Position numbers and translations under genes: made by a program. Below the pieces are notes generated by a model. That model was given only the letters and a program-made list of their open reading frames with translations, was not told the origin of the DNA and made no database searches. From Nitrospirota bacterium (lineage in GTDB: Bacteria > UBA2233), in assembly GCA_011620345.1 (NCBI GenBank), contig WOZJ01000050.1, positions 215,976 to 258,234 on the forward strand: a DNA stretch of 42,259 nucleotides, given 5' to 3'. Below are positions 11,312 to 40,200 of the stretch, one piece after another (positions within the stretch are counted from its first letter, which is position 1; each line of letters begins with the position of its first letter).

Positions 11312-11382
11312 GCAACCGCTTCTTTATGTGTTTTATGCTAGGCCTTTTTGTGTAGAATGACAATAGAGGCCGATTAGATAAG

Positions 11383-11400
11383 AAGGAGTATAAGGAGTAT
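11383..11400 (+). promoter_or_regulatory. tandem Shine-Dalgarno repeat before thiM
   Basis: AAGGAGTAT occurs twice in tandem. The second AAGGAG lies 7 nt before the TTG at 11405 and 4 nt before the TTG at 11402, which favours 11405 as the start. The upstream copy is an unusual second ribosome site. Confidence 0.6.
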
Positions 11401-11404
11401 CTTG

Positions 11405-12172
11405 TTGCAAAACGCATACTTGAGCGCAGCCTTGGAACGAATTGCTTCCACCCGACCGCTCATCCACCACATGACGAACCTGGTTGTTGCGAGCGTAACG
11501 GCCAATCTTACGCTTGCAATGGGGGGACTTCCCATCATGGCGTCCGCCAAAGAGGAAGTTGAGGAGATCGTCTCCAAGTCGAGCGTCCTTTTGCTCAACA
11601 TTGGTACGCCTACAAGCGAGCAGCTTGAGGCCATGGAACGGGCCGGTTCCATGGCCAAGGAGCTCAAGATTCCGATCGTCTTCGACCCGGTCGGGGCAGG
11701 GGCGAGCCGCTTCCGGACGAAAGCGGCGATTGATCTCATCCGAGAGCTTCAGCCATCTGTAGTCCGAAGTAACCTTGCCGAGGCTCTTTCGCTGATTCAA
11801 GAAGATGCGCGCATCCTCGGCGTCGAGAGCCTCGAGGACGACGAGGAGACCGCCAAACGGGCCGCTAGGGGGCTTGCTGCACGCTTTGGCTGCGTGGCGG
11901 CCATTACGGGCAAAGTAGATATCGTCTCGGACGGCGAAAATGTAGGGCGCATAACAGGCGGAAACCCTTTGCTCAAAAGCATTACAGGGTCGGGCTGCAT
12001 GGCAACTACGGCTGTGGCTTGCTTTCTTGCCAAGGATACCCCTATCAAAGCCGCAGTACTTGGACTCTCTCTTATAAAAACGGCAAGCGAACTCGCTTTG
12101 GAGGTCAAAGGGCCTGGATCCTTCCAGGTCTCCCTTCTGGATGCCGTTTACCGCCTTAGAGAAGGGCTTTAG
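11405..12172 (+). CDS. thiM: hydroxyethylthiazole kinase
   Basis: A 255-residue ribokinase-like enzyme that phosphorylates 4-methyl-5-hydroxyethylthiazole for thiamine salvage. Diagnostic segments are the N-terminal HHMTNLVVASVTANLTLAMG substrate-binding stretch, FDPVGAGASRFRT, the RSNLAE(A) turn, AITGKVDIVSDG and the anion-hole loop GSGCMATTAVACF. Length is normal. The start codon is a TTG (11405, or the adjacent TTG at 11402), chosen from spacing to an AAGGAG site. thiE follows 3 nt after the stop. The leader is under 90 nt and shows no TPP riboswitch, so control by TPP at this locus is not evident. Confidence 0.95.
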   Translation: MQNAYLSAALERIASTRPLIHHMTNLVVASVTANLTLAMGGLPIMASAKEEVEEIVSKSSVLLLNIGTPTSEQLEAMERAGSMAKELKIPIVFDPVGAGASRFRTKAAIDLIRELQPSVVRSNLAEALSLIQEDARILGVESLEDDEETAKRAARGLAARFGCVAAITGKVDIVSDGENVGRITGGNPLLKSITGSGCMATTAVACFLAKDTPIKAAVLGLSLIKTASELALEVKGPGSFQVSLLDAVYRLREGL

Positions 12173-12175
12173 TCC

Positions 12176-12799
12176 ATGTTCAAGAGGCCTATTCTTTGCG
12201 CGATTACGGCTAGCAACGCTCAGCTCAGTCATGCCGATATCGCGAATGCAGCGGTCCGGGCCAACGTGCCGATGGTCCAGCTACGCATGAAGGGTGCTTT
12301 CAGTACCGAGATGTACGAAACGGCCCGAACCCTTCGAGCGATCACCGAGGGAAAGGCTCTTTTGATCGTCAATGACAGCCTCGAGGTGGCGCTGACGGTT
12401 GGAGCGGACGGCGTTCATTTGGGAAAAGAAGACTTGCCCATTGATGCCGCGAGACGGATCTCCCCGAAAGGGTTTTTGATCGGGGCGTCCGTCTCGAATG
12501 CCTACGAGGCAAAAAAAGCCGCAACGCTCGGGGCGGACTACATTGGCGCTGGCCCCGTGTTTGCTACGAAGAATAAGCTGGATAAACCTCCAATCGGGCT
12601 TGCTCGGCTATCCGAGGTATGCGGTGTCGTCTCGATCCCCGTCCTTGCGATCGGGGGCATAACGCTCGAGAATGCCCCGCAAGTCATGCAGGCTGGAGCT
12701 TCCGGCGTGGCCGTAATTTCAGCCATCTTGGATGCAAAGCACCCCCTTGAGGCTATCCGCAGCTTGATGGTAAGCCTCAAGGGGGTCTCTTTCCCATAG
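12176..12799 (+). CDS. thiE: thiamine-phosphate synthase
   Basis: A 207-residue TIM-barrel enzyme that joins HMP-pyrophosphate and thiazole phosphate into thiamine phosphate. Recognisable elements are VQLRMKG (pyrophosphate-binding R/K), the LLIVNDSLEVALTVGADGVH strand with its metal aspartate, GASVSNAYEA, the IGAGPVFATKNKLD loop and the phosphate-binding AIGGI and GASGVAVISAI segments. It follows thiM with a 3-nt gap, forming a compact salvage unit; no de novo thiazole or pyrimidine genes are nearby. Its last codons contain a perfect 13-bp inverted repeat that may serve as the terminator of this operon. Confidence 0.95.
   Translation: MFKRPILCAITASNAQLSHADIANAAVRANVPMVQLRMKGAFSTEMYETARTLRAITEGKALLIVNDSLEVALTVGADGVHLGKEDLPIDAARRISPKGFLIGASVSNAYEAKKAATLGADYIGAGPVFATKNKLDKPPIGLARLSEVCGVVSIPVLAIGGITLENAPQVMQAGASGVAVISAILDAKHPLEAIRSLMVSLKGVSFP
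12742..12785 (+). terminator. intragenic terminator-like hairpin in the 3' end of thiE
   Basis: CCCCCTTGAGGCT (12742-12754) and AGCCTCAAGGGGG (12773-12785) are perfect complements with an 18-nt loop, followed by the pyrimidine run TCTCTTTCCC. The stem lies within the coding sequence and ends 14 nt before the end of thiE. The next gene is convergent, so termination here makes sense, but the T tract is imperfect. Confidence 0.55.
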
Positions 12800-18247: not shown

Positions 18248-18520
18248 TTAGGGCTCTTCGTCAAACTTCCTGTCAATAAGACCCTTTAAGGCATTGATGG
18301 CAAGCTCAGCATCCTCGCCTTCTGCGAGAATTTCTACTCTGGACCCTTTTGTTGCAGCAAGCGTGAGCAAATCAAGGATGCTTTTCGCATTTGCGGTATT
18401 GCCGTTCTTTTTGAGAGAAACGCTCGAGTGGAACGTCTTTGCCTCTTGGGCAAGCTTTGCGGCCGCCCTGGCATGGAGCCCGAGCGTATTCACAATCTCG
18501 ACCTCTTGCCTACAGCGCAT
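18248..18520 (-). CDS. HPr-type phosphocarrier protein
   Basis: A 90-residue HPr-fold protein. The histidine phosphorylated by PTS enzyme I lies in NTLGLHARAA (H16), and the serine targeted by HPr kinase in other species is present in ANAKSILDLL (S47), so both regulatory positions are intact. The start at 18520 gives the usual HPr length; GGAGG is only 2 nt upstream, so a start a few codons earlier (18535) is possible. It overlaps the phoR stop by 11 nt, which suggests cotranscription with phoBR. No enzyme I, HPr kinase or PTS permease is in the window, so a regulatory rather than sugar-transport role is plausible but unproven. Confidence 0.88.
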   Translation of the reverse strand: MRCRQEVEIVNTLGLHARAAAKLAQEAKTFHSSVSLKKNGNTANAKSILDLLTLAATKGSRVEILAEGEDAELAINALKGLIDRKFDEEP

Positions 18521-19757
18521 GCCCTCCGCCACCATCACGCGAGTCAGCCTGAGACAGGCAGAACGCAACTCGAGTACCCTTTCCCACATGGCTTTCAATG
18601 ATAAGCTCCCCGTTGTGAAGTTGCAAGAGATGCTTTACGATCGCTAGCCCAAGGCCTGTTCCTCCAAGTGCGCGGGAACGAGCCTTATCTACTCTGTAGA
18701 ACCGCTCTGTGATCCTTGAAAGGTCCGAACGTGGAATTCCAATGCCCGTATCTTCTACGGATACCCAAACCTTTCCTTGTCCTTGCCGACATTCCGCTCC
18801 GACGGTAACGCCCCCTTCGTTGGTATACTTAATGGCGTTTTCAACCACGTTGATGAGGACCTGGAGGATCTTGTCGCGGTCACAGGCAACCCAGATGTCG
18901 GATGCACAACGAACTTCGAGCCTAAGGCCCTTTTCTTGAACCATCGGAAGAAGGATTTCAAGCGTTTCTTGGATAAGCTCCAGAAGGTTATGGTCCCCAA
19001 CCGTCATGTTTACGTTTCCGAGCTCGAGGTTTGAAAGGAGGAATAGCTCGTTAATGAGCCTATCCATCCGGTCCGTGTGCCGCTTGGCGATCCCTAGGAA
19101 CCGCTTGCTCGCGCTCTGGTCTTCCAGTGCGCTGTCGAGCAAGGTTTCCAAAAACCCGTTGATTGTCGTGATCGGCGTCTTCAGCTCGTGCGCCACGTTT
19201 GCGATAAAATCCGACCGAACCGCCTCAAGGCGCTTCCATTCTGTCAAATCCTGTATAAGAACAACCCAAAGATCCTCCTCAAGACAAGAGGCACGAAGGC
19301 CAAGATAGCGGCCTTGCGCTAAAAGTTCTCCTCCGGTACGGACTTCTCGCCGCCTTCCATGATTTGCGTCTAGAATGAGCGCCTCAATGGCTTCAATCAG
19401 CCGAAAATCCCTTATCTCATATTTTAGGTGCTTGTTTACAGCGTCTCCTTTGAGCCCTAAAAGGCGAACTGCACTTTGATTGGCATGAACGACTCTAAGC
19501 TCGCCCGTTAATATGATTACGCCTTCCTCAATGGAGTCGAGCACGGCCAACAAAACCCCGAGCCGCCCCTTTAACTCTAACGCCAATCCTTTTGTATTCA
19601 GAAGAGCCTCCCTAGTCTTCCAAAAAGGGGCCGATATTAGCCGCAAAAACCTTGAAGGGGGTGTCGCAAGGGATAGAGATGTGAGCACCACGCGAAACAG
19701 CGCAAGCCCTAACAAGGCTCCAAGGAGAATACCGCCTCCTAAGGCGACAAAAAGCAC
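18510..19757 (-). CDS. phoR: PhoR-like sensor histidine kinase
   Basis: A 415-residue membrane kinase: an N-terminal hydrophobic hairpin or single helix (about 3-26), a PAS domain (about 70-175, with EEGVIILTGELRVVHAN), a HisKA domain with the phospho-accepting H190 in DFIANVAHELKTPIT, and a HATPase_c domain with N box VVENAIKYTNEGG, G1 VEDTGIGIP and G2 GTGLGLAIVKHLL. There is no large periplasmic sensing domain, which matches PhoR proteins that sense phosphate through the Pst/PhoU complex. The GTG start overlaps the phoB stop (TAGTG), so the two are translationally coupled. Pst and PhoU genes are not in the window, so the phosphate role is inferred from domain plan and partner. Confidence 0.9.
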   Translation of the reverse strand: MLFVALGGGILLGALLGLALFRVVLTSLSLATPPSRFLRLISAPFWKTREALLNTKGLALELKGRLGVLLAVLDSIEEGVIILTGELRVVHANQSAVRLLGLKGDAVNKHLKYEIRDFRLIEAIEALILDANHGRRREVRTGGELLAQGRYLGLRASCLEEDLWVVLIQDLTEWKRLEAVRSDFIANVAHELKTPITTINGFLETLLDSALEDQSASKRFLGIAKRHTDRMDRLINELFLLSNLELGNVNMTVGDHNLLELIQETLEILLPMVQEKGLRLEVRCASDIWVACDRDKILQVLINVVENAIKYTNEGGVTVGAECRQGQGKVWVSVEDTGIGIPRSDLSRITERFYRVDKARSRALGGTGLGLAIVKHLLQLHNGELIIESHVGKGTRVAFCLSQADSRDGGGGHAL

Positions 19758-20461
19758 TAAGAATCCTTAAGTTTTTGCTGGAACTTGTAACCCGTTCCAC
19801 GAACGGTCACGATATGGGCAGGGTTTGCAGGATCATTCTCAAGCTGGGCGCGTAGACGGCTTACGTGAACATCTACCGTGCGGGGCTCGATAAAAATGTC
19901 CTGTCCCCAAACTTTTTCAAGTAGCTGTTCTCGAGAGAAAACCCGGTTTGGATGGGTGACCAATAGCTTTAGGAGCCTGAATTCCGTCGGAGTGAGTTGC
20001 AGGGGTGACCCATCCTTGAGGACGTCGTGAGTTGCGAAGTTCACATAAAGCCTCCCGAAACGTACCTCGCCTTCGCCAGTATCTGGGGATCTTACACGCT
20101 TCAACACGGCCTTAACGCGGGCGATCAACTCCCGAACGCTGAAAGGCTTCGTCACATAATCGTCGATGCCTAAATCAAACCCTCTTATCTTGCTTTCTTC
20201 TTCCGTCCTTGCCGTAAGGACGATGATCGGAAGCCCTTTTGTCGCAGGCCTCGATTTTAAGATTCTGCAAAGCTCGATCCCATCAATACCAGGAAGCATT
20301 AGATCTACAAGAAGCAATGCAGGTGGGTCTTTCTGAACCTGCTCGAGCGCCTGAAGCCCGCTTCCCGCACACCTGGCCTCAAACCCGGCCCTGGTTAAGT
20401 TGTAAACAAGCAACTCTACAATGTCTTCTTCGTCTTCGACGATCAGAATATGGTCAGACAC
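19757..20461 (-). CDS. phoB: PhoB-like OmpR-family response regulator
   Basis: A 234-residue two-domain regulator. The receiver has the acidic pocket VEDEED, the phospho-accepting D53 in LLLVDLMLPGIDGIEL, T in IVLTARTEEES and K in DYVTKPFSVREL. A winged-helix domain follows, with LTPTEFRLLKLL, REQLLEKVWG and the recognition-helix region RTVDVHVSRLRAQLE. The start is taken as GTG at 20461: any earlier start would lie within tRNA-Cys (20489-20563) or leave almost no leader. An AAGGGCG stretch is 11 nt upstream. It is followed by phoR and HPr, and preceded by two tRNA genes with no clear promoter in the 27-nt gap. Confidence 0.9.
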   Translation of the reverse strand: MSDHILIVEDEEDIVELLVYNLTRAGFEARCAGSGLQALEQVQKDPPALLLVDLMLPGIDGIELCRILKSRPATKGLPIIVLTARTEEESKIRGFDLGIDDYVTKPFSVRELIARVKAVLKRVRSPDTGEGEVRFGRLYVNFATHDVLKDGSPLQLTPTEFRLLKLLVTHPNRVFSREQLLEKVWGQDIFIEPRTVDVHVSRLRAQLENDPANPAHIVTVRGTGYKFQQKLKDS

Positions 20462-20488
20462 TGCGAGCACACGCCCTTGCAGAAGCGA

Positions 20489-20563
20489 TGGAGGCGGCAC
20501 CCGGATTCGAACCGGGGTATAGAGGTTTTGCAGACCTCTGCCTTGCCACTTGGCTATGCCGCC
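20489..20563 (-). tRNA. tRNA-Cys (anticodon GCA)
   Basis: Acceptor stem GGCGGCA/TGCCGCC, D arm AGCC...GGC, anticodon stem AGAGG/CCTCT with loop TCTGCAAAA region reading GCA, T arm CCCGG-TTCGAAT-CCGGG, discriminator T and encoded CCA. It lies between tRNA-Gly and phoB. Confidence 0.97.
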
Positions 20564-20736: not shown

Positions 20737-21684
20737 CTAAAAGACCGCCCCAACCGTCGCGCCGATTGCGCTGATTGGGCCTTGATCCTCCATGCCTTTG
20801 GTCGCACGATCGACGTTGGCAAGCGACTCTTCGGCTTTTTTGTAGAGCGAATCGTCCGTAACCAGCTTGCCTAGCGTTCCCTCGCCCCGGTTCACCTTCT
20901 GGGCTACTTCGGTCAAATCTTTGAGCGCACGATCGAGCCTGTCCATCATGGCCGTCGTTTTTTTGTAGAGCGAATCGTCCTTAACCAGCTTGCCCAGTGT
21001 CCCCTTCCCCTCTTCTAGGCTCTTGACGGAGCCCTGGAGGCTGGACATAGTCGAGGAAAGTTGGCTGTAGAGCGTATCGTCTTCTAAGAGCTTGCCTAGT
21101 GTCCCCTCGCCCTTGGCGAGCTTCTCCGAGAAAACGCTGAAGTTGTGAACCATATCGCCCATCTCTTTTTCGTGCTTTTCAAAAAACGTATTGAGCTTTG
21201 CGAGCGGCCCCTCTTTGCCGGCACCGAAAGATTCAGCGGCATCCTGAAGCGAAGCGACGGCCTTGTTGACGTTGTCTAGCACTTCAGCAACACTAGGCGA
21301 CTCTTTCACGTTCAAGTAATCCCCGTTTTTCAGCGCGGCATTGGCCGAAGAGCCGGGCGCAATGTTCAAGGCTGACGTCGACGTAGCCCCCATAATCGAG
21401 GCCTCGAGCGTCGCCGTTGCGTCTTTGTATAGCCGCACCTCTTCTGGCACAGCGATGGCCACCTTGACTTTGCCGTCTTTAAAGGCAAGATCACGGACCT
21501 TTGCGACGTTCATGCCGGATACGCTGACATCGGTCCCCTCTTGAATCCCTCGAACGTTTCGAAAAAGCCCGTAAACGGTATACGTTTTTCTAAAAGGCAT
21601 AAACCCGGTTGTTAGTTCAAGGAACACGATAAAAATTGCCAGTGCCAGAAGGACAAATAAGCCTACGCGTTGCTCTCGATTCAT
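20737..21684 (-). CDS. mlaD: MCE-domain lipid-transport protein (MlaD type) with C-terminal repeats
   Basis: A 315-residue protein anchored by one N-terminal helix (VGLFVLLALAIFIVFLEL) with a single periplasmic MCE domain (about 35-115: VYGLFRNVRGIQEGTDVSVS, then VRLYKDATATLEASIMG). MCE domains form hexameric rings that carry lipids between membranes. The region from about 125 to 300 is helical and contains three copies of a G-EGTLGKL-DDSLY unit (about 190-207, 225-241 and 266-282). The ATG at 21684 has a GAGG site. It is the third component of the mlaE-mlaF-mlaD set, 27 nt after mlaF. mlaC, mlaB and mlaA homologues are not present nearby. The repeats may form a long coiled extension towards the outer membrane. 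Confidence 0.9.
   Translation of the reverse strand: MNREQRVGLFVLLALAIFIVFLELTTGFMPFRKTYTVYGLFRNVRGIQEGTDVSVSGMNVAKVRDLAFKDGKVKVAIAVPEEVRLYKDATATLEASIMGATSTSALNIAPGSSANAALKNGDYLNVKESPSVAEVLDNVNKAVASLQDAAESFGAGKEGPLAKLNTFFEKHEKEMGDMVHNFSVFSEKLAKGEGTLGKLLEDDTLYSQLSSTMSSLQGSVKSLEEGKGTLGKLVKDDSLYKKTTAMMDRLDRALKDLTEVAQKVNRGEGTLGKLVTDDSLYKKAEESLANVDRATKGMEDQGPISAIGATVGAVF
20841..21115 (-). repeat. threefold ~50-bp repeat in mlaD
   Basis: Three similar segments, about 20841-20890, 20964-21013 and 21066-21115, share TGTAGAGCG.ATCGTC and AGCTTGCC.AG.GT on the plus strand. They are 123 and 102 nt apart, so they stay in frame and encode the G-EGTLGKL-DDSLY unit. Two of the copies are nearly identical at DNA level. 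Confidence 0.85.
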
Positions 21685-21711: not shown

Positions 21712-22464
21712 TCATGCAAGGGCCGCCGCTTCGATAAATGCCCGAAGGGGGGGATACTCAGCATTAAGAAGCTCGCCCACTTTTACGCTGCAGGCGATCC
21801 TTCCGTCCTCCAAAAGAGCGATCCTATCCGCTACCTGCCTTGCAAACACAAGGTTGTGAGTGACAACTACAATCGTCATCTTATGGGCAGATTGAATCTT
21901 CTGGATAACCTCAGCTAACTCGGCGCTCAAAAGAGGGTCCAGCTCTGCCGTCGGCTCGTCGAACAAAAGGACGTCCGGCCTCGTTGCCAGTGCGCGTGCA
22001 ATGGCCGCACGCTTGCGCATGCCCCCCGAAAGCTCCGTCGGATAGAGGTCCCTGGCATGCTCAAGCTCGACGCTTGTTAGGGCATCCATGACGAGCCTGT
22101 CTAAGTTGTCCCCTTTGGCCATTCCATGCTCTTTAAGGTAGAGCGCTACGTTTTCGAACACGCTAAGAGAGTTGAGCAAAGCAGACCCTTGGAACACCAT
22201 GGCCATACGAAAAGGCTTTTTTTGGGCCGAAATGTTGCGATAAGTGTCTGCCGGAATTCCGTTCAGCAACACCTCCCCCGAGTCGGGACGCTCTAGCCCT
22301 GCGCTAAGCCGAAGGAGCACGCTTTTTCCCTGTCCAGACTTACCGATCACGACGAGCGTTTCGCCGGCCTCTACCCCAAGGTTCAGCCCTTTGAGGACGG
22401 GCTTGTCCCCGTAGGCCTTAGTCACGTGTTTTAGCTCTATCCTCACGCCTTCTTTAAGCTGCAT
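21712..22464 (-). CDS. mlaF: MCE/Mla lipid ABC transporter ATP-binding protein
   Basis: A 250-residue cytoplasmic ATPase with Walker A GKSGQGKSVLLRL, Q loop MVFQGSALLNSLSVFENVAL, signature LSGGMRKRAAIARALATRP, Walker B LLFDEPTAELDP and H loop VVVTHNLVFARQVAD. The GMRKR form of the signature is typical of MlaF-type ATPases. A GGGAGGG site precedes the ATG at 22464. It lies between mlaE (23-nt gap) and mlaD (27-nt gap) and should energise lipid movement through MlaE and the MlaD ring. Direction of transport cannot be told from sequence. Confidence 0.93.
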   Translation of the reverse strand: MQLKEGVRIELKHVTKAYGDKPVLKGLNLGVEAGETLVVIGKSGQGKSVLLRLSAGLERPDSGEVLLNGIPADTYRNISAQKKPFRMAMVFQGSALLNSLSVFENVALYLKEHGMAKGDNLDRLVMDALTSVELEHARDLYPTELSGGMRKRAAIARALATRPDVLLFDEPTAELDPLLSAELAEVIQKIQSAHKMTIVVVTHNLVFARQVADRIALLEDGRIACSVKVGELLNAEYPPLRAFIEAAALA

Positions 22465-22487: not shown

Positions 22488-23300
22488 TTAAAAAATTAGG
22501 ACGACCCTAGCAATGATGTAATCGAAGACGGTCACCGTAATAAAGCTCCACACTACGGCAGAAGTTGTGGCGCTTGAGATTTCTTCTGTCCCTCTTCGGG
22601 CGCGGAGGCCGATCGTACAGCTAAGGATGGCCGTAACGGCGCCAAAAACGAGTCCTTTGGCCATACCTATAATGATATCGCTGAATTTCAAGTAGGCTTG
22701 GAGGTTATGGAAGTATGCGTTGACGGAAACGTGGATGGCAGGGTCGATAGCCACTGCGAAGGCTCCGGCAAGGATGCCGATGATGTCGGCATAAAGGATT
22801 AACAAAGGCAAGGTTAGCGCCGTGGCAATAAACTTCGGCAGGATGAGGTAGGATTCTACGCTGACGTCGAGCGTTCGCAGCGCCGCGATCTCCTCGTAGA
22901 CCTGCATCGTGGCCAACTCGGCCGCCATGGCAGACCCTGCCCTCCCTGCGAGTAAAAAGGCCATTAACACAGGGCCGAGCTCTTTTGTCATGGCAAGCCC
23001 AACGATCGAGCCTAGAACTTCTTGAGAGTATCCTTCGAGCTGGTCTGCCGTCTGGACGACAAGGACCATGCCTATAAAAAAAGCAAGGAAGGAGGAAATG
23101 AACAAGCTCGAGGTGCCGATGCGTACCATCTCGTCAAGAATCAGCCCCGCCCTCTTGGGGATCTCTCTAAAGCTTCCAAGCGTACGAAGTGCCCAATCCA
23201 CGCTCTGGCCCAAGATCTCAAGCCCGTAGAGAACGCTCCTCCCAATACTTGTAAGTAGCCCCTGGGAATTTTTGACCTCGAGGCGCTCTGTGGCCTGCAT
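22488..23300 (-). CDS. mlaE: MCE/Mla lipid ABC transporter permease
   Basis: A 270-residue inner-membrane permease of the MlaE family. It has an N-terminal amphipathic stretch, then helices including GTSSLFISSFLAFFIGMVLVVQ and the family signature region ELGPVLMAFLLAGRAGSAMAAELATM with the following VYEEIAAL. The start is placed at ATG 23300, 2 nt after the stop of the upstream repeat-protein gene, which implies coupled translation; a longer reading to 23387 would overlap that gene by 85 nt and adds a basic extension with no family support. It is the membrane core of the transporter with MlaF and MlaD. Confidence 0.92.
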   Translation of the reverse strand: MQATERLEVKNSQGLLTSIGRSVLYGLEILGQSVDWALRTLGSFREIPKRAGLILDEMVRIGTSSLFISSFLAFFIGMVLVVQTADQLEGYSQEVLGSIVGLAMTKELGPVLMAFLLAGRAGSAMAAELATMQVYEEIAALRTLDVSVESYLILPKFIATALTLPLLILYADIIGILAGAFAVAIDPAIHVSVNAYFHNLQAYLKFSDIIIGMAKGLVFGAVTAILSCTIGLRARRGTEEISSATTSAVVWSFITVTVFDYIIARVVLIF

Positions 23301-23302
23301 CT

Positions 23303-24541
23303 CTATCGGCCGCCGAAATGGATTAAATCGTACAGCACGCTTATCCCCCATTCGTTTCGCTCGAACACGCCCCATAAAGGGGCCCATGTTTTCTCGATTC
23401 CTTCGTTATACGGGAAGACCTGCTCCAAAAGAGAAAATACGCGAATTTTTCTGCCGAACGATGCGTCGCGAACATGGACCAAGGGCATTAGGCCGTGAAA
23501 CTCAACTTCTCTTCTTTGGTTATCCAAAGATATCTTACGCTCGTTTCGGTAAAGAAAAAACACGCTGTCGTCTCGAAGGTAGAGGTGTTCACCTTTACTG
23601 ACGCCGTGGAAGCGCCACAGCGGCCAAAGCAAGAATTCGGCCTTATAGTTGTCGTATTCCTGTCTTTGAAAGAAGGGAAAAAGGCGAAGCGTCCTTCGGG
23701 CCCCGGTCTTCGTGTCGTGAGAGTTGACCATGAACGGCCACGGAAACCCCTTACTTTCATAGTTGTCAGCCTTAGAGACGGTCTTGTTATAGAGCCCATA
23801 CATTTGGGTTTCGAACTGAGGGTTGGAAAGGTGCGCCCAAACAGGAAAATTGACCTTCGAAATCCAGGGCCCATCCTCTCGAATGTCCGTCCGGCGAATA
23901 TGAAACGGCCAGAGGACGAACGACTCGGTACGCTTGCCAGGGTCTTCCTCGCTGCCGTAAAAGGGGAACAGATCCCACCCTTTCGCGCCCTCGCCCGACA
24001 ACGAGGCAAAGAATGGAAAAGGCCGGAACGTCTTGCTTACCCCTCTGTTTGTGACCCGGAGGTATGCAGGAAAAAACCTGACGAATATTTCGTCCTGCCC
24101 CATGAAGCGATTGACAGTCCCCCAAAAAGGGAAGAACATCCACCTCGTTCCGTACGTTTGATCCCGCTCGTAGAAATACAAAGGAAAAATCCGGAAGCGC
24201 TTCTCTCCATCCGGTTCACGTTTGTGGACATAGCTCAGCACAAGCAGGCTAGAGATCGACGTCTCCCGCTCGGAGCTTCGCACCTGAAGCAAGGGGTAGA
24301 GCGCATATAGCGTTTTCTCATCCTTCTTCAAACTTCGCTCTTTTAAGAAAAAAGGAAGGATGCCGTACCGGACAGCGTCCTTGGTGCGCTCGTAGAGGCC
24401 AAACGGCGGAAGAATGCGAACCTGCACAGAACCGTTTTCGAGTTCCTTACGCACATAGAATGGCCAAAGCGACAGGCTAAAGGCGTGGCCTACGTCCAAA
24501 AAAAAGAGCCATACGGCGAAGAGTCCTACCAAGCGGATCAT
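23303..24541 (-). CDS. secreted repeat protein of unknown function in the Mla operon
   Basis: Not assigned to a characterised family. The 412-residue product starts with a signal peptide (IRLVGLFAVWLFFLDVGHAFS). The rest carries about fourteen copies of a short F/W-P-F/L-aromatic motif at intervals of roughly 12-30 residues, for example ILPPFGLYER, IFPLYFYERD, MFFPFWG, LFPFYGSEED, VLWPFHIRR, RLFPFFQRQ and LLWPLWRFHG. Each is followed by charged turns rich in R, D and E. This alternation suggests repeated beta-hairpins, perhaps an outer-membrane barrel or a beta-propeller-like periplasmic protein. Similar uncharacterised aromatic-proline repeat proteins occur in myxobacteria and relatives, from memory. 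Its ATG overlaps the metH stop by 4 nt (ATGA) and its stop is 2 nt from mlaE, so a role with the lipid transporter is inferred. Confidence 0.85.
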   Translation of the reverse strand: MIRLVGLFAVWLFFLDVGHAFSLSLWPFYVRKELENGSVQVRILPPFGLYERTKDAVRYGILPFFLKERSLKKDEKTLYALYPLLQVRSSERETSISSLLVLSYVHKREPDGEKRFRIFPLYFYERDQTYGTRWMFFPFWGTVNRFMGQDEIFVRFFPAYLRVTNRGVSKTFRPFPFFASLSGEGAKGWDLFPFYGSEEDPGKRTESFVLWPFHIRRTDIREDGPWISKVNFPVWAHLSNPQFETQMYGLYNKTVSKADNYESKGFPWPFMVNSHDTKTGARRTLRLFPFFQRQEYDNYKAEFLLWPLWRFHGVSKGEHLYLRDDSVFFLYRNERKISLDNQRREVEFHGLMPLVHVRDASFGRKIRVFSLLEQVFPYNEGIEKTWAPLWGVFERNEWGISVLYDLIHFGGR

Positions 24542-26964
24542 GCGCCCTCCCTTTTGAGCCGGCCAAGGAGGGTTTCGGTCAGGGATACCACCTCGCTTAC
24601 GTCCTTTCCATAGCCGTCTGCATGAATCTCCTCGGCAAACTGCCTAGTAACCGCGGCGCCGCCAACCATGACCTTGTCGGAAAGCCCTCTTTTTTTTACC
24701 TCTTCGATGACCGTTTTCATCTCCAGCATGGTTGTCGTCATCAGCGCGCTTAGCCCGATTACCTCCGCGTTGTGCTCGATAGCGGCATCGAGGATCTTCA
24801 GCATTGGGACGTTTCTGCCCAGATCGATCACTTCGAACCCAAAGTTGCGGAGCATCAGGCAGCAAAGGTTCTTTCCGATGTCGTGGATGTCGCCCTTTAC
24901 GGTGGCAAACACAACCCGACCCTTGGTCCTGGCGGTTTTTTGTCCTTTTTGAAGAACGGGCTCAAGCACCTCGACGCCTCTTCGCATCGCATCGGCCGCA
25001 AGAATCAGGTGTGGGAGGAATTTCTTTCCCATGCCGAACAAGTCGCCCAGCGCCTTTAGCGCCGGTGTCATTACCTCGGTCAAGACCCAAAGGGGGTCTA
25101 GCCCCTCTTGAAGCCCTTGCTCTACAAGCCCGGCGATCCGTTCCTTATCCCCGTCGAACACGGCCTTGTAAATCTTGTCCTTCGTGTCTTGGGGCTCTTT
25201 GTCCGAAGGCTTGCCTTCTGCCAAGCCTGCGGAGGCCGCCTGAACTGTCGAAAGATACACCTTGCACCCCGGGTCTCTCCCGGAAAAGAGGGATGCTGCG
25301 AGAATGGCCTGCTGGATGTCTTTGTCGGTAGGGTCAAGAATGGCCGCGTCCAACCCGTAGCCCATGGCCATGGCAAGGAATGTACGGTTGACAAGCCTTC
25401 TTTCGGGAAGGCCAAACGATACGTTGCTCAGGCCGATAGTCGTAGGAAGCCCGAAGTGCTCCCTGACGCCCTGGATCGTGCGGAGGGTTTCCCTGGACGC
25501 CTGTTGCATGGCCGAAACCGTGAGGCATAAACAATCGACGAGGATCTGGCTTCGTTGTATCCCTAAAGCCTCTGCATGTTTTAGGATAACCTCCAGGACA
25601 GCCAGCCTTTCCTTGGCCGTTTCCGGGATTCTGTCCTCGCTTAGAAGGCAAATAACGCTCGCGCCGAAGCGCTTGATGAGCGGGAGGATCGCTTCAAGGC
25701 GCTCGGGTTCTGCGTTTACGCTGTTGACAAGCGCCCTGCCTGGGTAGGCCTCAAGCCCCGCTTTGAGCGCGGCCGGAAACGAGCTGTCCAGAACTAGCGG
25801 CACCTCGACAACCTGGGAGGCTCGTATCACGGCCTCCCTCATCAATGCGGACTCGTCCGATAATGGAACACCAACGTTGATGTCGAGCGCCAAAGCGCCC
25901 GATCGTACCTGGGAGAGCGCAAGCTCGATCACTCTTTGAAAGTTTTGCTCTTGAAGCTCTTTTTGAAAGGCCCTTTTTCCTGTCGGGTTAATTTTTTCGC
26001 CAATCAGGACGAAAGGTTCCCCCTCCCCAAGCATTACTCTGTCCGACCTCGAGGCAAGAGAGGTTTTCAATCGCACGCTCCTCGGCGTGCAGGGCCTTCC
26101 TTTGAGGGCTTGGCTAATCCGCCGGATATACCCCGGCGTCGTGCCACAGCATCCGCCCAAGATTGCAACCCCTTTCTCGACAAAAGTTTGTGCGAACTCG
26201 GCAAGCTCCTTCTCGTCCAAGGGGTAGGTTGTACGCCCGTCCCTGTAAACAGGAAGGCCGGCGTTTGGCTTGACTAGCACGGGAACGGGAGTAGCGGTCA
26301 ACAAAGACTCGATGATCGGGAGCATCTCCTTTGGCCCGAGCGAACAGTTGATTCCGAACGCTTGTATGCCGAACCCATCAAGGATGGCTGAAGCGACCTC
26401 AGGCGGTGTCCCCGTGTCGAGCGTGCCTTTTGGCCCGTAAGTCAGGCTTACAAAGAGGGGCATGGCCGGGGCCGCCTCTTTCACGCCGACCACGGCCGCC
26501 CTTGCTTCTTGGATGTCGAAAAACGTCTCGATCAAGATGAGGTCCGCTCCGCCCTCCTTGAACAACCTTGCCTGGTCGTAAAAATACCCGGCAGCATCTT
26601 CAAAGCTCAGCTCTCCCAAGGGTGAGACGAGCAGGCCCAAGGGGCCGATGTCGCCTGCGACCAGCGCCTTGTCTTGGGCGATTCCCCTTGCGATTTCCAG
26701 GCCCCGAAGGACAATATCTTTTTGGCGGGGCTCGAGCCCGTATTCTTTGAGCCTAGGAACGCTCGAGCCAAAGGTGTTGGTTGTCAAGATTTGTGCGCCG
26801 GCATCCAGGTAGGCATGGTGGACGTGCGCCACCGCTTCAGGGTGTTCCAGGTTCCAGATGTCCGGGGCAACCCCCTGGCCGAGCCCCATTGCCTGGAGCA
26901 TCGTTCCCATCGCACCGTCAAGAATTAGCACCTCTTTGCCGAGGCCCAGAAGGCTTGGTCTCAT
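24538..26964 (-). CDS. metH: corrinoid-dependent methionine synthase, short form
   Basis: An 808-residue enzyme moving a methyl group from methyl-tetrahydrofolate via cobalamin to homocysteine. Domains in order: homocysteine methyltransferase barrel (about 1-290) with zinc cysteines in FGINCS (C207) and GGCCGT (C272, C273); pterin-binding barrel (about 315-600) with IGEKINPTGKRAF and LDINVGV; four-helix cap (about 610-680); and a B12-binding domain with base-off motif VKGDIHDIGKNL (H694). The C-terminal AdoMet activation domain of classical MetH (about 1,200 residues) is absent, so reactivation must use a separate protein. The ATG at 26964 is preferred to TTG at 26967. A strong promoter lies 45-73 nt upstream. 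It is the first gene of a transcript that continues into the repeat protein and Mla genes. Confidence 0.94.
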   Translation of the reverse strand: MRPSLLGLGKEVLILDGAMGTMLQAMGLGQGVAPDIWNLEHPEAVAHVHHAYLDAGAQILTTNTFGSSVPRLKEYGLEPRQKDIVLRGLEIARGIAQDKALVAGDIGPLGLLVSPLGELSFEDAAGYFYDQARLFKEGGADLILIETFFDIQEARAAVVGVKEAAPAMPLFVSLTYGPKGTLDTGTPPEVASAILDGFGIQAFGINCSLGPKEMLPIIESLLTATPVPVLVKPNAGLPVYRDGRTTYPLDEKELAEFAQTFVEKGVAILGGCCGTTPGYIRRISQALKGRPCTPRSVRLKTSLASRSDRVMLGEGEPFVLIGEKINPTGKRAFQKELQEQNFQRVIELALSQVRSGALALDINVGVPLSDESALMREAVIRASQVVEVPLVLDSSFPAALKAGLEAYPGRALVNSVNAEPERLEAILPLIKRFGASVICLLSEDRIPETAKERLAVLEVILKHAEALGIQRSQILVDCLCLTVSAMQQASRETLRTIQGVREHFGLPTTIGLSNVSFGLPERRLVNRTFLAMAMGYGLDAAILDPTDKDIQQAILAASLFSGRDPGCKVYLSTVQAASAGLAEGKPSDKEPQDTKDKIYKAVFDGDKERIAGLVEQGLQEGLDPLWVLTEVMTPALKALGDLFGMGKKFLPHLILAADAMRRGVEVLEPVLQKGQKTARTKGRVVFATVKGDIHDIGKNLCCLMLRNFGFEVIDLGRNVPMLKILDAAIEHNAEVIGLSALMTTTMLEMKTVIEEVKKRGLSDKVMVGGAAVTRQFAEEIHADGYGKDVSEVVSLTETLLGRLKREGA

Positions 26965-27008
26965 CAAACGGAACTCCCGATAGGACTGAACGTTTAAGGC
27001 CGCTCTCC

Positions 27009-32370: not shown

Positions 32371-33252
32371 GTGCAAGCACCTGCAACCCAAAGGCTCAAC
32401 TTCAATTCGATTGTCGTTATTATTCCAGCATTAATGGTCGTCCTGGCCACGGTTCCGTTCTGGATCATCGGGCTTTTGGGCGTATGGGCGTTTTTCTCGC
32501 TGGGAACTCGTATCAGCGAAATTGCCGCAAGGAGCGAGGCGAGCCAACAATCCGCCCAGTTTATAGCCGTCTTTCGGAGCCTCCAGGACGCGGTGACCGA
32601 CGCCGGCTGGGCGTTTTTTATCGAGGCGGTCATTATTGCCATTTTAGGGGCAATCGCCGTGTTTGGCGTATCTTACTATGTCTACAGGAAAACTAAGCGG
32701 ATTGCGAATAGCCTTTTGGACGCCGTCCAAGCCATCGAGGAAGGCCAGGAGGAGGTTTCCCCTGACGGCGGCGGCTACGAGGAAACCGAGCTTCTTGCCA
32801 AGAGTATCCAAGAGATGGCAAGGATCATTGCAAGGCAGAACCAGGCGCTCCGCGGAACAGTAGATGAATTAAGCATTCCTGCCATCGAGATCTGGCGGGG
32901 GGTTGTTTTCATGCCCGTCGTGGGCTACGTAGATTCTAGGCGGGCGTTTCAAATCGAGGAGGCGCTCCTTGAGAGGACGGTTCAAACCAAAGCCCGGTTT
33001 GTTATCCTGGATATTTCAGGGATTTCCAGCATCGACACGCAAGTCATGGCGCACATCCTGAAGATCATCAAGGAAATTGCGTTGTTGGGGGCTAAGGCGA
33101 TTCTTTCTGGCACTTCCCCCCAAACGGCACGCTCTCTTGTACACCTAGGGGTAGATCTTGGCACCACGGAGGCGTATGGCGAGCTTGAAGCAGCGCTTAG
33201 GCGGATATTTGCAGATTACGGCTTTTTCAAGAAGAAGCCTGCGCAAGTTTAA
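32371..33252 (+). CDS. membrane-anchored HAMP-like plus STAS domain protein (RsbR type)
   Basis: A 293-residue protein with two membrane helices (about 14-41 and 80-106) bracketing a short outside loop rich in S, E and A, a HAMP-like linker (about 107-160, KRIANSLLDAVQAIEEGQEE) and a C-terminal STAS domain (about 165-285). The STAS part begins ELSIPAIEIWRGVVFMPVVG and has DISGISSIDTQVMAHILKII, very like RsbR, with S/T residues where RsbR is phosphorylated by RsbT. The GTG start at 32371 has an AAGGG site. No RsbT or RsbS gene adjoins it. Its end overlaps flgL by 26 nt. A stressosome-like or other partner-switching role is inferred. Confidence 0.84.
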   Translation: MQAPATQRLNFNSIVVIIPALMVVLATVPFWIIGLLGVWAFFSLGTRISEIAARSEASQQSAQFIAVFRSLQDAVTDAGWAFFIEAVIIAILGAIAVFGVSYYVYRKTKRIANSLLDAVQAIEEGQEEVSPDGGGYEETELLAKSIQEMARIIARQNQALRGTVDELSIPAIEIWRGVVFMPVVGYVDSRRAFQIEEALLERTVQTKARFVILDISGISSIDTQVMAHILKIIKEIALLGAKAILSGTSPQTARSLVHLGVDLGTTEAYGELEAALRRIFADYGFFKKKPAQV

Positions 33253-34210
33253 TCACGCTAGGCTGAAGAACCGTGTTGAGCGAGGCAAAAGTTGCTTCGA
33301 GCGCCCTCCTTGACTGGTCAAGCTTTAGAGGGCTTTGCACTTCGACATCGCCGTTTTCGGTGAGCGAGCGAAGGTTGTTGGTGTTTAAGTTGAGTTCGTC
33401 CAGCCATGTCTTTGCGTTCTGAAGGGATTGCGCCCCTACCCCCATCTGGGCCCTGAACGTGGCAACCTGATTGTAGGCGGTGTTTAGGTATAGTGTTGCG
33501 TTTTTGATGCGCTCTTTATTGGAAACACCCGGCCCACCGATGACGCGGCGGTCAGGATAGGCGATCGCGTTCATAAGGTCTTGCATGAGAGCAAACAGGT
33601 TTACACCTTTTTGAGACTCTGCACCCCCGAAAACTGCCGAGCCGGGCAGGCTAATCTCGGCGTAAATCCCCGGAAGCACCTCTAGCTCCATGCTGTTGCC
33701 ATCGCCCGCGTATTCCACGGCCCCTTCAAACTGGAGGTACCCTTGCTCGGTACGTACAGGCTGGACAGTGCTCTTGAAGGGCGGGGACTGGTTTTTGAAG
33801 CCCGCAAACACGTACTTTCCGGCAATAGAGGTGTTCGCTGCATCGAGCAGGCCCCTCATAATTTCATCGAGCGCGCGAAGGTTGACCTGCGTTCGCCTTG
33901 GGTCTTCAACACCCTGGAGCTCTTGGGTCGCGATGTCCCTTGCCTTTAAAATGAGCTGTTGGACCTGGGCCAGCGACTGATCCATGGCCGTTTGAACGGA
34001 TATCGCCCTCTCAATCTGCACGCCGGCCTGCTGGTAGAAGTCCATGGACTCTCGGTAGCCGAGCACCCTTGCGTAGCCTACTGGGTCGTCGGATGGACGG
34101 TTGAGCTGCTTGCCCGTCGAGAGCTGTTCTTGGGCGCGCACAAGATCCTCCCGGTCGTTCTGAACCCAAGAAAGCGTGTTCCTGTATACCGTTGGGTCGG
34201 CCACCCGCAT
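33227..34210 (-). CDS. flgL: flagellar hook-filament junction protein FlgL (HAP3)
   Basis: A 327-residue secreted flagellar protein that joins the hook to the filament. The flagellin-like N terminus MRVADPTVYRNTLSWVQNDREDLVRAQEQLSTGKQLNRPSDDPVGYA is a good match to HAP3, and the C terminus (LDQSRRALEATFASLNTVLQ) forms the complementary helical end. It is the last gene of the flagellar operon, 26 nt after flgK. The usual csrA/fliW neighbours of some relatives are absent; a convergent STAS gene follows with a 26-nt overlap. Confidence 0.94.
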   Translation of the reverse strand: MRVADPTVYRNTLSWVQNDREDLVRAQEQLSTGKQLNRPSDDPVGYARVLGYRESMDFYQQAGVQIERAISVQTAMDQSLAQVQQLILKARDIATQELQGVEDPRRTQVNLRALDEIMRGLLDAANTSIAGKYVFAGFKNQSPPFKSTVQPVRTEQGYLQFEGAVEYAGDGNSMELEVLPGIYAEISLPGSAVFGGAESQKGVNLFALMQDLMNAIAYPDRRVIGGPGVSNKERIKNATLYLNTAYNQVATFRAQMGVGAQSLQNAKTWLDELNLNTNNLRSLTENGDVEVQSPLKLDQSRRALEATFASLNTVLQPSVIKLAQASS

Positions 34211-34236
34211 TGTGATGCCTCCTTTTCCAGCTAAGA

Positions 34237-35652
34237 TCAGCGAACGATTCCCAAAAGAGAATCAAACATAGTTTGCGTTACGATAAGACTTTGACTTGCT
34301 GCCTGAAAGGCCCGCTGGTAACGAGTCAGGGTGATCATCTCCTCGTCCAGTGAAACACCCGAAACAGAATCCCTTTGGGTAGCAAGCTGCTCTAGAGTGC
34401 CTTGCGTAGTTTTTAGCTCGGCCTCCAGCCGCTGCATCGTACCACCTACACCCGATACGATCCCGCCTAGGTATTCTGAGAACGTCTTTGCATCTTTGGA
34501 GCCAGGCTTGACTATGATCTGGTTGTTCCAAAGGCCAGCGATGGCCAATGCCGTACGATTATCTCCCGGTAGGCCCTGCTTGGTAGTCGCCGCGGCGATG
34601 GCGCTCTCCGAGCGTTTGATGGGCTCTGCAAGCTCGAGGAAGCGGGAGGCATCCTGTTCAGCCTTTTGGTCTGGCTTTGCCAGCACAAAGAAGGGCTGAC
34701 CCGTCTGTCCGGCAAGGTCGTAGCCTTGGCGGTGAAGGACGTTCACTTCGCCCCCGAGCACAAACGCAAGATGGTCGATCTGGTTTAAATACGAAGGGAT
34801 GTCCTTTTGTATGACCTCCGTAAGCCCGCCAAGCTTCCCCCCTTGAATCCTGTTTGTAATGTCTTCGTAGTAGGCTCCATCCCGGAATGCGATCTGGATG
34901 TCGCCAGAGCGACTTCCGCCTTGGTATACGAGCGACTTGGCCGTAGAGCCATCGACAAGCGCCTTTCCTCCGACGTAGACCGTAAGGTTGTCCCCGTGAT
35001 CAAGGGTTTCGATGTCAACAAGCTTGGAGAGGTCTCCAAGGAGCGCATCTCGCTGATCCTTAAGGTCGTTGGCCCTGCCCCCTTTCCCTGAAATCGCCCG
35101 GTTTAGCCTTGCAATTTCTTCTGCATAGGCGTTCACCTGTGACACGGTAGCCTCAATGTCGGCCCTCGCGGAGAAATCGGCCTGGTGTAGGATAAGACTC
35201 GTTCGTTTGAAGGTGTCAGTCAACTGGATTGCTTTTTCCCGAACAACCTTTCTCTCCCCCAAACCTGCCGGGTTTTCTGCCAACGCGCGGTAGGCTCCGA
35301 AGAACTCGCTCATTGCTTTCTCTAGTCCAGGAGCGCTCGCTTCGTTTAAGGCGCTTTCGATCTGCCTTAGGTAAGTCTGGCGCACTTCAAGCTCGCCAAG
35401 GGCGTTTTGCTGTTTTTGGATTTGCGAATCAATGTAGAGGTCTTTTACGCGTCGGACATCGGAGGCCTGAACGCCCGTGCCAAGGCCTCCGATAGAGGTG
35501 AGGTAAGGCGGGGTTGCTTCCAAAACGACCTCCTGGCGAGTATAGCCAGGCGTGTTGACGTTCGCGATATTATGTTCCGAAGTGGAAAGAGCTGTTTGAT
35601 TCGCCACCAACGCCCTTTTGCCTGTCTCTAGCGATTGAATCAGCCCCGGCAT
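34237..35652 (-). CDS. flgK: flagellar hook-associated protein FlgK (HAP1)
   Basis: A 471-residue hook-associated protein. The N terminus has the FlgK signature LIQSLETGKRALVANQTALSTSEHNIANVNTPGYTRQ, and the C terminus SLDEEMITLTRYQRAFQAASQSLIVTQTMFDSLL is the conserved C-terminal helix. The ATG at 35652 is chosen over a 45-codon longer reading because it is the family start, has a GAGGAG site and lies 2 nt after the flgN stop. It is exported by the flagellar type III system and chaperoned by FlgN. Confidence 0.95.
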   Translation of the reverse strand: MPGLIQSLETGKRALVANQTALSTSEHNIANVNTPGYTRQEVVLEATPPYLTSIGGLGTGVQASDVRRVKDLYIDSQIQKQQNALGELEVRQTYLRQIESALNEASAPGLEKAMSEFFGAYRALAENPAGLGERKVVREKAIQLTDTFKRTSLILHQADFSARADIEATVSQVNAYAEEIARLNRAISGKGGRANDLKDQRDALLGDLSKLVDIETLDHGDNLTVYVGGKALVDGSTAKSLVYQGGSRSGDIQIAFRDGAYYEDITNRIQGGKLGGLTEVIQKDIPSYLNQIDHLAFVLGGEVNVLHRQGYDLAGQTGQPFFVLAKPDQKAEQDASRFLELAEPIKRSESAIAAATTKQGLPGDNRTALAIAGLWNNQIIVKPGSKDAKTFSEYLGGIVSGVGGTMQRLEAELKTTQGTLEQLATQRDSVSGVSLDEEMITLTRYQRAFQAASQSLIVTQTMFDSLLGIVR

Positions 35653-35654
35653 CT

Positions 35655-36119
35655 CTACACTCTCCTCGAAACCGTTGGAATTTCCCCCGTTATTTTGATC
35701 GTCCCAACGGGGGTGTAGCGTTGGTCGCTCATTCCTATCGTTTGTTTTAGCCTTGAAAAAAGCCCCTCTATCCAAGCAAGCGAACAAGCGACTAAGTCTT
35801 TGAGTTCCCTTGAGGCATGCTGCACGTCCTTAACCCTTTCTTTGAGCAAGGAGGCCTGCCCTCGAAGCTGCCCTGCGTCTTCCTTCGATATACCAGCGAG
35901 AATCTCCTCTATCGAGGCTTCAAGGGGAATCCCGGCTTCCTGAAGACTGGCTTGCCTCATCTGCTCGAGCGCTTGTACCCTACGTTGAACCTGCTCTCTT
36001 TGTTCAAGGAGCGATTCAAGCTTCTCGGCATCCAGGGCCAACGCCGCCTTTTGCTCTTCTTGAAGCACCCTGACCAGTTCCTCGAGTTCAACGTTTAAAC
36101 GCTCAAAGATTTTAAGCAT
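35655..36119 (-). CDS. flgN: FlgN-like flagellar export chaperone
   Basis: A 154-residue, almost wholly helical protein; residues 5-125 read as coiled coil (LNVELEELVRVLQEEQKAAL, LESLLEQREQVQRRVQAL). FlgN chaperones FlgK and FlgL. Sequence similarity in this family is weak, so the call rests on fold, length and location between flgM and flgK. A gap of 3 nt to flgM and 2 nt to flgK implies coupling. The C-terminal 30 residues are unstructured, as expected for the substrate-binding end. Confidence 0.8.
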   Translation of the reverse strand: MLKIFERLNVELEELVRVLQEEQKAALALDAEKLESLLEQREQVQRRVQALEQMRQASLQEAGIPLEASIEEILAGISKEDAGQLRGQASLLKERVKDVQHASRELKDLVACSLAWIEGLFSRLKQTIGMSDQRYTPVGTIKITGEIPTVSRRV

Positions 36120-36122
36120 GGG

Positions 36123-36428
36123 CTAAAAAAGCTCCCCCATAATAATCCCCCAGGCCACAACGTCTTCGTCCATTTCAAGCGTTCCGCGCTCAATGGCCTC
36201 CTTGTGCATAGCAACCACCGCCGGGCGCACCTCTTGGGCAGAGGCGCTTGCGGCAAACTTTTGAGCCAAACGCCCCGCCTCAGAAACCGTCACGCGGTCT
36301 TTTGCGAGAGGCTGCCCTTTTTTCCCTCCAGACGGGCTTTTTTCTCGTACAGAGTCTAACCTCCCCAACTGAGATGAAGCAACCTGCTGGCCGAGGCTAT
36401 CAACCGGAGGATACCCAAAGCTCGCCAT
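36123..36428 (-). CDS. flgM: FlgM-like anti-sigma-28 factor
   Basis: A 101-residue small protein with a disordered N-terminal half and a C-terminal helical part, SEAGRLAQKFAASASAQEV... and HKEAIERGTLEMDEDVVAWGIIMGEL, where FlgM contacts FliA. FlgM holds FliA inactive until it is exported after hook completion. The ATG at 36428 is favoured over TTG at 36431. It is preceded by a candidate sigma-28 promoter in flgJ, the expected target of the factor it inhibits. fliA is at the head of the same gene run. Confidence 0.82.
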   Translation of the reverse strand: MASFGYPPVDSLGQQVASSQLGRLDSVREKSPSGGKKGQPLAKDRVTVSEAGRLAQKFAASASAQEVRPAVVAMHKEAIERGTLEMDEDVVAWGIIMGELF

Positions 36429-36453
36429 CAAAACTCGCCTTCTCGCTTAAGCC

Positions 36454-36828
36454 TTAATCTATACTTAAAGAATCGGTTTTTTTGGAAGAAACTTGACCAG
36501 GCCCCTGCCGCTCTTTTGGTAATTGTTCGGTACGCCCTTCGAGGCCTTTTTCGATGAACTCTGCCACCCCGAGCGAGCTTGTTTTTGCGATTTCGTCTGC
36601 CAAGGCCAAATCGATCAACATCTCGTAAGTATCCTTGCCCGTCATCTCTGGGGCCAGGCTGTTATGGGGGATTGTTTTTCTCATCTCTTTGAGCAGAGAA
36701 TACACGAACATGGATTCAAACTGCCCTGCAATCTCGTGAATGTTGGCGCCGGAAGTTCGACCAAGACTTCCTGGATTAAGGATAGCCTGTTGCGCATTGA
36801 GCTGCCCAATTGGTTCTATTGAATCCAT
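36454..36828 (-). CDS. flgJ: FlgJ-like rod-binding protein (N-terminal domain only)
   Basis: A 124-residue protein matching the rod-capping half of FlgJ: AGQFESMFVYSLLKEMRKTI and DTYEMLIDLALADEIAKTSSLGVAEFIEKGL are the two conserved helices. The peptidoglycan hydrolase domain found in enterobacterial FlgJ is missing, as in many other lineages, so another enzyme must open the wall. The tail (about 95-124) is polar and low complexity. It lies 9 nt after flgI. Its final codons contain the candidate sigma-28 promoter of flgM. Confidence 0.88.
   Translation of the reverse strand: MDSIEPIGQLNAQQAILNPGSLGRTSGANIHEIAGQFESMFVYSLLKEMRKTIPHNSLAPEMTGKDTYEMLIDLALADEIAKTSSLGVAEFIEKGLEGRTEQLPKERQGPGQVSSKKTDSLSID
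36470..36496 (-). promoter_or_regulatory. candidate sigma-28 (FliA) promoter for flgM-flgN-flgK-flgL
   Basis: On the minus strand TCAAGTTT (36489-36496), an 11-nt spacer and ACCGATTC (36470-36477). The first matches TAAAGTTT at seven of eight and the second GCCGATAA at five of eight positions, and the spacer is exact. It lies inside the 3' end of flgJ, about 40 nt before flgM. Confidence 0.58.
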
Positions 36829-36837
36829 AGCCTCTCC

Positions 36838-37956: not shown

Positions 37957-37966
37957 CCAGCCTCCC

Positions 37967-38611
37967 TTAAAAAGGCCAGATCTTGTCAAGGACGCCGGCC
38001 AAGAATCCAGGCCTTTGCTTGTTCCCAACGAGCCCTTTCCCTTCGTAGCTTATGGCCAGGTTTGCAATCAGCATCGAAGAAATTTGGTTACTGGATTCGA
38101 TGTCCTCGGGCCTAACAACCCCCCTTAGCAGCATCACCTGGTCCTCGTCGTTCAGGCGAATCCTGCGTCTTCCTTCGATGAAGAGGTTCCCGTTGGGGTA
38201 CACGTCCCGAACGACGCAGACCACCTGAGTTACGAACGTCCCGCCCCTCTGGGTTGTTCCCGTACCCGTGTAATCGTGCGTGGCGTTCATGTCGCCCGAA
38301 TACGTCCTAGCGCCCGGATTTGTGGTAAAGTCTCCGCTTAAACCCGTTTCACGGTTTGTCGTCGTCCCAGCCTGGTAGGTGGAGGCCGCCTGTTCGGCCA
38401 CGTTCACTACGACGATGTCGTTGAGCCTAGAAGCTCGCTTGTCGCCAAAGAGGTCTCTGTAGGCCGGCTCCGGATAGCCCTGCTGCTGCTCGGATGCGCT
38501 GGGGACGTAATCTACCATGTCCTTAGACATTTCTCCCAGCATCGGTTGCTTGTAGGCACAGCCTAAGGCAAGCAACAAAAGGACAGCGGAGCTATACGAA
38601 GGCATTTTCAC
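37967..38611 (-). CDS. flgH: flagellar L-ring lipoprotein FlgH
   Basis: A 214-residue outer-membrane lipoprotein forming the L ring. The signal sequence ends in LLALGC, a lipobox with the acylated cysteine at 18. The core has YRDLFGDKRASRLNDIVVVNVAEQA, and the C-terminal half NGNLFIEGRRRIRLNDEDQVMLLRGVVRPEDI is the strongly conserved ring-forming part. Its presence implies an outer membrane. The GTG start overlaps the flgA stop (GTGA); ATG at 38605 is an alternative. Confidence 0.95.
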   Translation of the reverse strand: MKMPSYSSAVLLLLALGCAYKQPMLGEMSKDMVDYVPSASEQQQGYPEPAYRDLFGDKRASRLNDIVVVNVAEQAASTYQAGTTTNRETGLSGDFTTNPGARTYSGDMNATHDYTGTGTTQRGGTFVTQVVCVVRDVYPNGNLFIEGRRRIRLNDEDQVMLLRGVVRPEDIESSNQISSMLIANLAISYEGKGLVGNKQRPGFLAGVLDKIWPF

Positions 38612-39357: not shown

Positions 39358-39365
39358 GTCAGCTC

Positions 39366-40154: not shown

Positions 40155-40200
40155 TTTCTTTGTCCCCTCCTTGTTATTCTAGCGCATTTTCTTCATGGAT

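Follow-up and report, generated by a model that had tools for sequence, protein, structure and literature searches.

The protein encoded on the minus strand at positions 23303–24541 of the window, the 42,259-nucleotide stretch of DNA analysed here, is likely the outer-membrane-side partner of a distinct class of MlaEFD transporter. This 412-residue protein, described here as a WP-hairpin-repeat protein, belongs to an uncurated family for which REP is used as a working name. It carries an array of aromatic-proline repeats, its gene is linked to mlaE, mlaF and mlaD, MlaA and MlaC are excluded from REP loci, and REP co-occurs with MlaD proteins that end in a particular hydrophobic tip. Contact with this tip, an outer-membrane position for all members and phospholipid as the cargo are inferred.

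The REP gene is tightly packed between its neighbours. It overlaps the upstream metH-like methionine synthase gene (24538–26967, minus strand; Pfam/NCBIfam) by 4 nt (24538–24541), and the mlaE ATG at 23300 lies 2 nt past the REP stop. This mlaE start was judged the most likely; the longer open reading frame, open to 23387, would instead overlap REP. The mlaE permease gene (22488–23300; PF02405, 4.8e-63) is followed by those for the mlaF ATPase (21712–22464; PF00005, 1.2e-31; NF008809 MlaF, 3.1e-45) and for a 315-residue MlaD (20737–21684; PF02470, 1.9e-9), all on the minus strand. The three are encoded together, as expected of an MlaEFD system, and are supported by Pfam/NCBIfam. The window MlaD comprises an MCE domain and coiled-coil GEGTLGKLV repeats, lacks a C-terminal barrel, and ends in the hydrophobic tip MEDQGPISAIGATVGAVF (20740–20793, minus strand), the signature that co-occurs with REP.

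The metH-like product contains homocysteine, pterin and B12 domains and stops at about 800 residues; the AdoMet-dependent activation domain found in full MetH is missing. A link between REP and methionine synthesis was rejected because metH adjoins REP only in the window's genus. Elsewhere in the window, a Trans_reg_C response regulator and a PAS-HisKA kinase (a two-component pair; 18510–20500) directly follow mlaD, a flagellar gene cluster (flagellin-like, FlgK, FlgI and rod proteins) occupies 33227–41019, and two open reading frames of 369 and 299 residues (3218–4327 and 11333–12232) have no Pfam match at E ≤ 1e-4.

The N-terminus of the window REP, MIRLVGLFAVWLFFLDVGHA|F, resembles a signal peptide, predicted by eye to span residues 1–20 (24482–24541, minus strand) with cleavage at GHA|F; no second hydrophobic helix is evident beyond this stretch. 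The repeat array extends over about residues 26–390 (23372–24466, minus strand), with conserved prolines at residues 27, 46, 63, 83, 120, 138, 158 and 176 in its first part and at 193, 212, 233, 269, 289, 307, 353 and 388 in the rest. Fourteen [FWY]-P-[hydrophobic] motifs were counted, compared with 1.95 ± 1.3 expected from 20,000 shuffles (maximum 9), and a chance origin of the repeats was rejected; the number of repeats rises to ~20 once the variants LP, MP and AP are included. The initial annotation, made from the sequence alone, had claimed a signal peptide, about fourteen F/W-P-F/L motifs at intervals of 12–30 residues, a 4-nt overlap with metH and a 2-nt gap to mlaE. The signal-like N-terminus, the motif count and the overlap hold, as does the gap given the mlaE start at 23300. 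The repeat interval holds only in part, as the family-wide spacing is tighter, mostly 17–22 residues, and the pairing with metH proved specific to the window's genus and not meaningful.

Genome searches were started with the single protein and continued with profiles that grew afterwards. REP was found in 18 genomes of a 386-genome sample spanning Bacteria, in every searched genome of three phyla (those of G025, 3/3; G042, 4/4; and G133, 2/2), and in 113/395 genomes of the phylum of G309. The family spans at least five GTDB phyla, the window's own lineage included, usually with one copy per genome. A homologue 93% identical to the window REP occurs in 'Nitrospirae bacterium UBA2233', and the contig was therefore assigned to the small UBA2233 lineage, which corresponds to Candidatus Cutipiota in the list of PMC11382960. 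A divergent aromatic-proline repeat protein (L043, G270:C1) is longer, at 615 residues, and truncated by the contig edge; it lies on a short contig without an mla gene and is possibly a REP paralogue with a different role.

Known families offer little guidance. Pfam searches gave nothing above noise for the window REP and nothing at E ≤ 0.1 for 18 members, and homology with MlaA, MlaC or PqiC was rejected on the latter result. NCBIfam has no match of its own for REP. Weak, sub-threshold similarity to NF047486, the Leptospira-named LA_1737 family of unknown function, was seen in 9 of the 18 members (best E 3.3e-7), mostly over the C-terminal part; the best score among eight members scanned singly was 23.1 bits against a curated cut-off of 60 bits. 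A PDB sequence search with REP returned no convincing relative, and a plasmid search no match. No description of the family was found in the open literature, a search that did not cover most subscription journals and preprints.

The flanks of about 130 REP loci were examined, with open reading frames typed by MlaE, MlaD, MlaF and REP profiles. In 111/130 loci, REP has an mla gene as its immediate same-strand neighbour, with a median gap of 7 nt, and all 36 GTDB families represented have at least one REP locus directly beside mlaE, mlaF or mlaD. The gene order varies (EFD-REP in 62 loci, REP-EFD in 11 and F-REP-ED in 3), and the linkage has therefore outlived rearrangement. Among the 19 loci without an adjacent mla gene, 4 are at contig ends and 9 belong to family f287, in which 9/11 REP loci lie away from the mla operon; the rest are from f297, f308, f230 and f291. 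A functional link between REP and MlaEFD is thus shown by neighbourhood and co-occurrence, and physical contact is not. The initial annotation had named homologues found mostly away from mla genes as an outcome that would refute its proposal, and this was not observed. The f287 strays are L101, L103, L107, L109, L173, L176, L177, L180 and L182; the two f287 MlaDs examined at other sites of such genomes (L256, L257) still carry the tip. In four loci of one phylum (L029, L033, L035, L083), a gene for a DnaC-like helicase loader and a gene for a product of ~235 residues lie between mlaE and mlaF.

Both mlaA and mlaC are missing from the mla cluster of the window, as had been stated from its sequence, and this absence extends to the whole window genome (G000, 96.8% complete), where PF04333 (MlaA) and PF05494 (MlaC) have no match. 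MlaE is present twice in this genome; the second mlaEFD set (L216, G000:C2:7500-17135; also L217) has an MlaD of 365 residues and lacks the tip, REP and MlaC. No recognisable MlaA or MlaC was detected in the 130 REP loci with two queries of each. Genome-wide, MlaA occurs in 6/40 REP-positive versus 20/40 REP-negative genomes, and MlaC in 8/40 versus 27/40. Within one phylum only, the counts are 5/26 versus 20/40 for MlaA (p = 0.019) and 7/26 versus 27/40 for MlaC (p = 0.002); because the genomes share ancestry, the p values are indicative only. Where a genome has REP together with MlaC or MlaA, they occupy separate loci, mostly on separate contigs.

The MlaD encoded beside REP is typically ~340 residues long and barrel-less, with GEGTLGKLV-type coiled-coil repeats and a hydrophobic C-terminal tip of consensus E-Q-x-P-I-[ST]-x-x-G-x-x-x-G-x-x-F. 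A regular expression for the tip matched 100/109 complete MlaDs encoded next to REP, against 0/45 from other mla operons. This expression was tuned on REP-side tips, and a stricter earlier version matched 58/109. The tip was re-tested with a 60-column profile, a search independent of the expression albeit built from tips that the expression had picked; a match was considered full-length if it reached profile position 58 or beyond. Such matches occur in 40/40 REP-positive versus 1/40 REP-negative genomes. In the sole exception (G425), MlaE lies at base 129 of its contig and the gene order of its family is REP-E-F-D, so that REP would fall off the contig. Across Bacteria, full-length matches were found in 18/18 REP-positive genomes and in none of the other 368. 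Eight other genomes of the 386 matched in the coiled coil only; in place of the tip, their MlaDs have a barrel-like domain at the C-terminus, assigned by length and sequence without a structural model. MlaEFD operons without REP encode a short MlaD (146–195 residues) with MlaC/MlaA, a long barrel-type MlaD, or an MlaD with another tail; the barrel-type proteins have 422–628 residues versus 315 for the window MlaD, which ends in the coiled coil and tip. The idea that REP is the missing partner of the cluster, put forward in the initial annotation, is supported by the exclusion of MlaA and MlaC from REP loci and by the co-occurrence with one MlaD class.

Tip-MlaD and REP also co-occur while unlinked, in G413, G512, G510 and G133. 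This bears on an alternative in which REP is an envelope protein inherited together with this MlaEFD class and needed to assemble or regulate it, with no lipid handling or tip contact. All data are genomic, and operon linkage cannot separate transport from assembly. The strict one-to-one match with a C-terminal motif of MlaD, kept when the genes are unlinked, nevertheless argues for contact there, and the alternative is considered unlikely. It remains possible that tip-MlaD and REP are one vertically inherited package.

A hydrophobic stretch near the N-terminus is present in 118 of 124 complete REP members. Under a strict rule, a lipobox was found in 25/127 members from seven families, uniformly so in f298, f278 and f269; none of these lipoboxes has Asp at +2. 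According to the E. coli sorting rule, a residue other than Asp at +2 directs a lipoprotein to the outer membrane; the lipoboxes of the seven families thus point to that membrane. The window REP has no lipobox, as is the case for most members, and the outer-membrane position and a direct lipid role both remain inferences; the lipid role was already marked as inferred in the initial annotation. In a second alternative, REP would serve as a periplasmic carrier or groove for lipid, either soluble or elongated, in the manner of a functional MlaC or an AsmA-like bridge, and not as an outer-membrane docking factor. The simple signal peptide without lipobox in most members, the aromatic-rich hydrophobic repeats (about 20% F/W/Y), which could line a groove, and the lack of MlaC in REP loci speak for it. 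Against it, REP is a lipoprotein in several families, and the long MlaD needle with its tip resembles tunnel-type MCE proteins, which need no shuttle. A carrier is regarded as unlikely.

The repeat anatomy was derived from an alignment of 126 members. The array comprises about 20–24 units, mostly 17–20 residues in length and most with a near-invariant proline. Residues −2 to +2 relative to the proline are hydrophobic on either face ([LF]-[WF]-P-[LF]-[YF]), and charged turns come after them. In consecutive repeats, charges at positions +3 to +8 of a unit anticorrelate with those at the corresponding negative positions of the unit after it (mean −0.034; z = −5.8 relative to non-neighbour repeats; family-wise bootstrap 95% interval −0.041 to −0.023). 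The other side of the repeats shows no such anticorrelation (z = +1.8). The one-sided covariation suggests a β-hairpin between proline motifs, with WP as the corner between hairpins; each unit would then contribute a pair of short strands instead of a single long one. Mean-field DCA on the 126 sequences yielded noise, and only the repeat-pooled covariation was informative. The structure prediction proposed as a check in the initial annotation was run with AlphaFold and reached low confidence only, with pLDDT 28 for the window REP plus one homologue and pLDDT 42 for a fragment with its own repeats as a pseudo-alignment. The latter model resembles a hairpin arrangement and is not counted as evidence. 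The β-rich fold anticipated in that annotation, and the hairpin as the repeat unit, are thus supported by covariation and composition, with the fold inferred and not confirmed by a confident model.

These features also bear on a third alternative, in which REP is an integral outer-membrane β-barrel with at least 20 strands and is itself the conduit through that membrane, in effect the barrel of a long MlaD supplied in trans. REP swaps one for one with barrel-type MlaD, its amphipathic alternation is akin to that of MlaD barrels, and it has about 20–24 units of about 18 residues. On the other hand, profile–profile comparison revealed no homology between REP and MlaD barrels, a proline in nearly every unit and a core hydrophobic on both faces are unusual for transmembrane strands, and the covariation indicates two short strands per unit. 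An aromatic C-terminal residue (F or W) is present in only 18/124 members, which does not meet the criterion based on this residue, and lipoboxes occur in seven families. The barrel is an improbable reading.

The preferred reading remains that of an outer-membrane-side partner. MlaE and MlaF would energise the inner-membrane ring, and MlaD would form the MCE ring and a coiled-coil needle with the conserved hydrophobic tip at its end. REP would be retained on the outer membrane's inner face, as a lipoprotein in several families, where it would receive or cap this tip and complete the lipid path. It would thereby do the work of MlaC/MlaA, of the C-terminal β-barrel of Veillonella-type MlaD, or of the PqiC collar on PqiB. 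Several observations weigh against this reading: no confident structure is available, the anchoring of members without a lipobox, including that of the window, is not accounted for, f287 REP genes lie mostly outside the mla operon, and the tip sequence diverges in f30 and f133. A bolder version, for and against which the case seems to us evenly balanced, is that REP marks a third, previously unrecognised Mla class in at least five phyla and, at the outer membrane, docks on the tip of a hexameric MlaD needle to form a lipid conduit's outer end.

Most diderms have MlaEFD without MlaA/MlaC, and it has been asked whether non-homologous proteins fill this gap; which proteins, if any, serve barrel-less long MlaDs was left open (PMC10665443). 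REP is an uncurated family that fits the gap, nearly always present with MlaEFD, without MlaA or MlaC in the same locus, and matched to an MlaD signature. It makes the missing-partner question testable via one gene, and the REP/tip pairing divides MlaEFD systems into classes that can be read from sequence. In E. coli, MlaA and MlaC are comparable to REP in the proposed pathway position (outer membrane or periplasm), but REP has no PF04333 or PF05494 similarity and both proteins are excluded from its loci. In PqiABC, the outer-membrane lipoprotein PqiC forms a collar on the PqiB needle (PMC10897342). REP would similarly act from the outer-membrane side on an MCE needle protein encoded alongside it, holding the C-terminal end of the needle; unlike PqiC, it is a hairpin-repeat protein of 400–550 residues, is not always a lipoprotein, and has MlaEFD rather than PqiAB as its partner. 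The Veillonella-type MlaEFD has a long MlaD with a C-terminal β-barrel (Grasekamp et al. 2023, PMC10665443), and the barrel-less window MlaD does not qualify as such. Both types have MlaEFD without MlaA/MlaC and a long MlaD with a helical region, and a trans-envelope route is proposed for both. The β part is fused to MlaD in the Veillonella type, whereas the REP systems combine a hydrophobic-tip MlaD with a separate, non-homologous WP-repeat protein.
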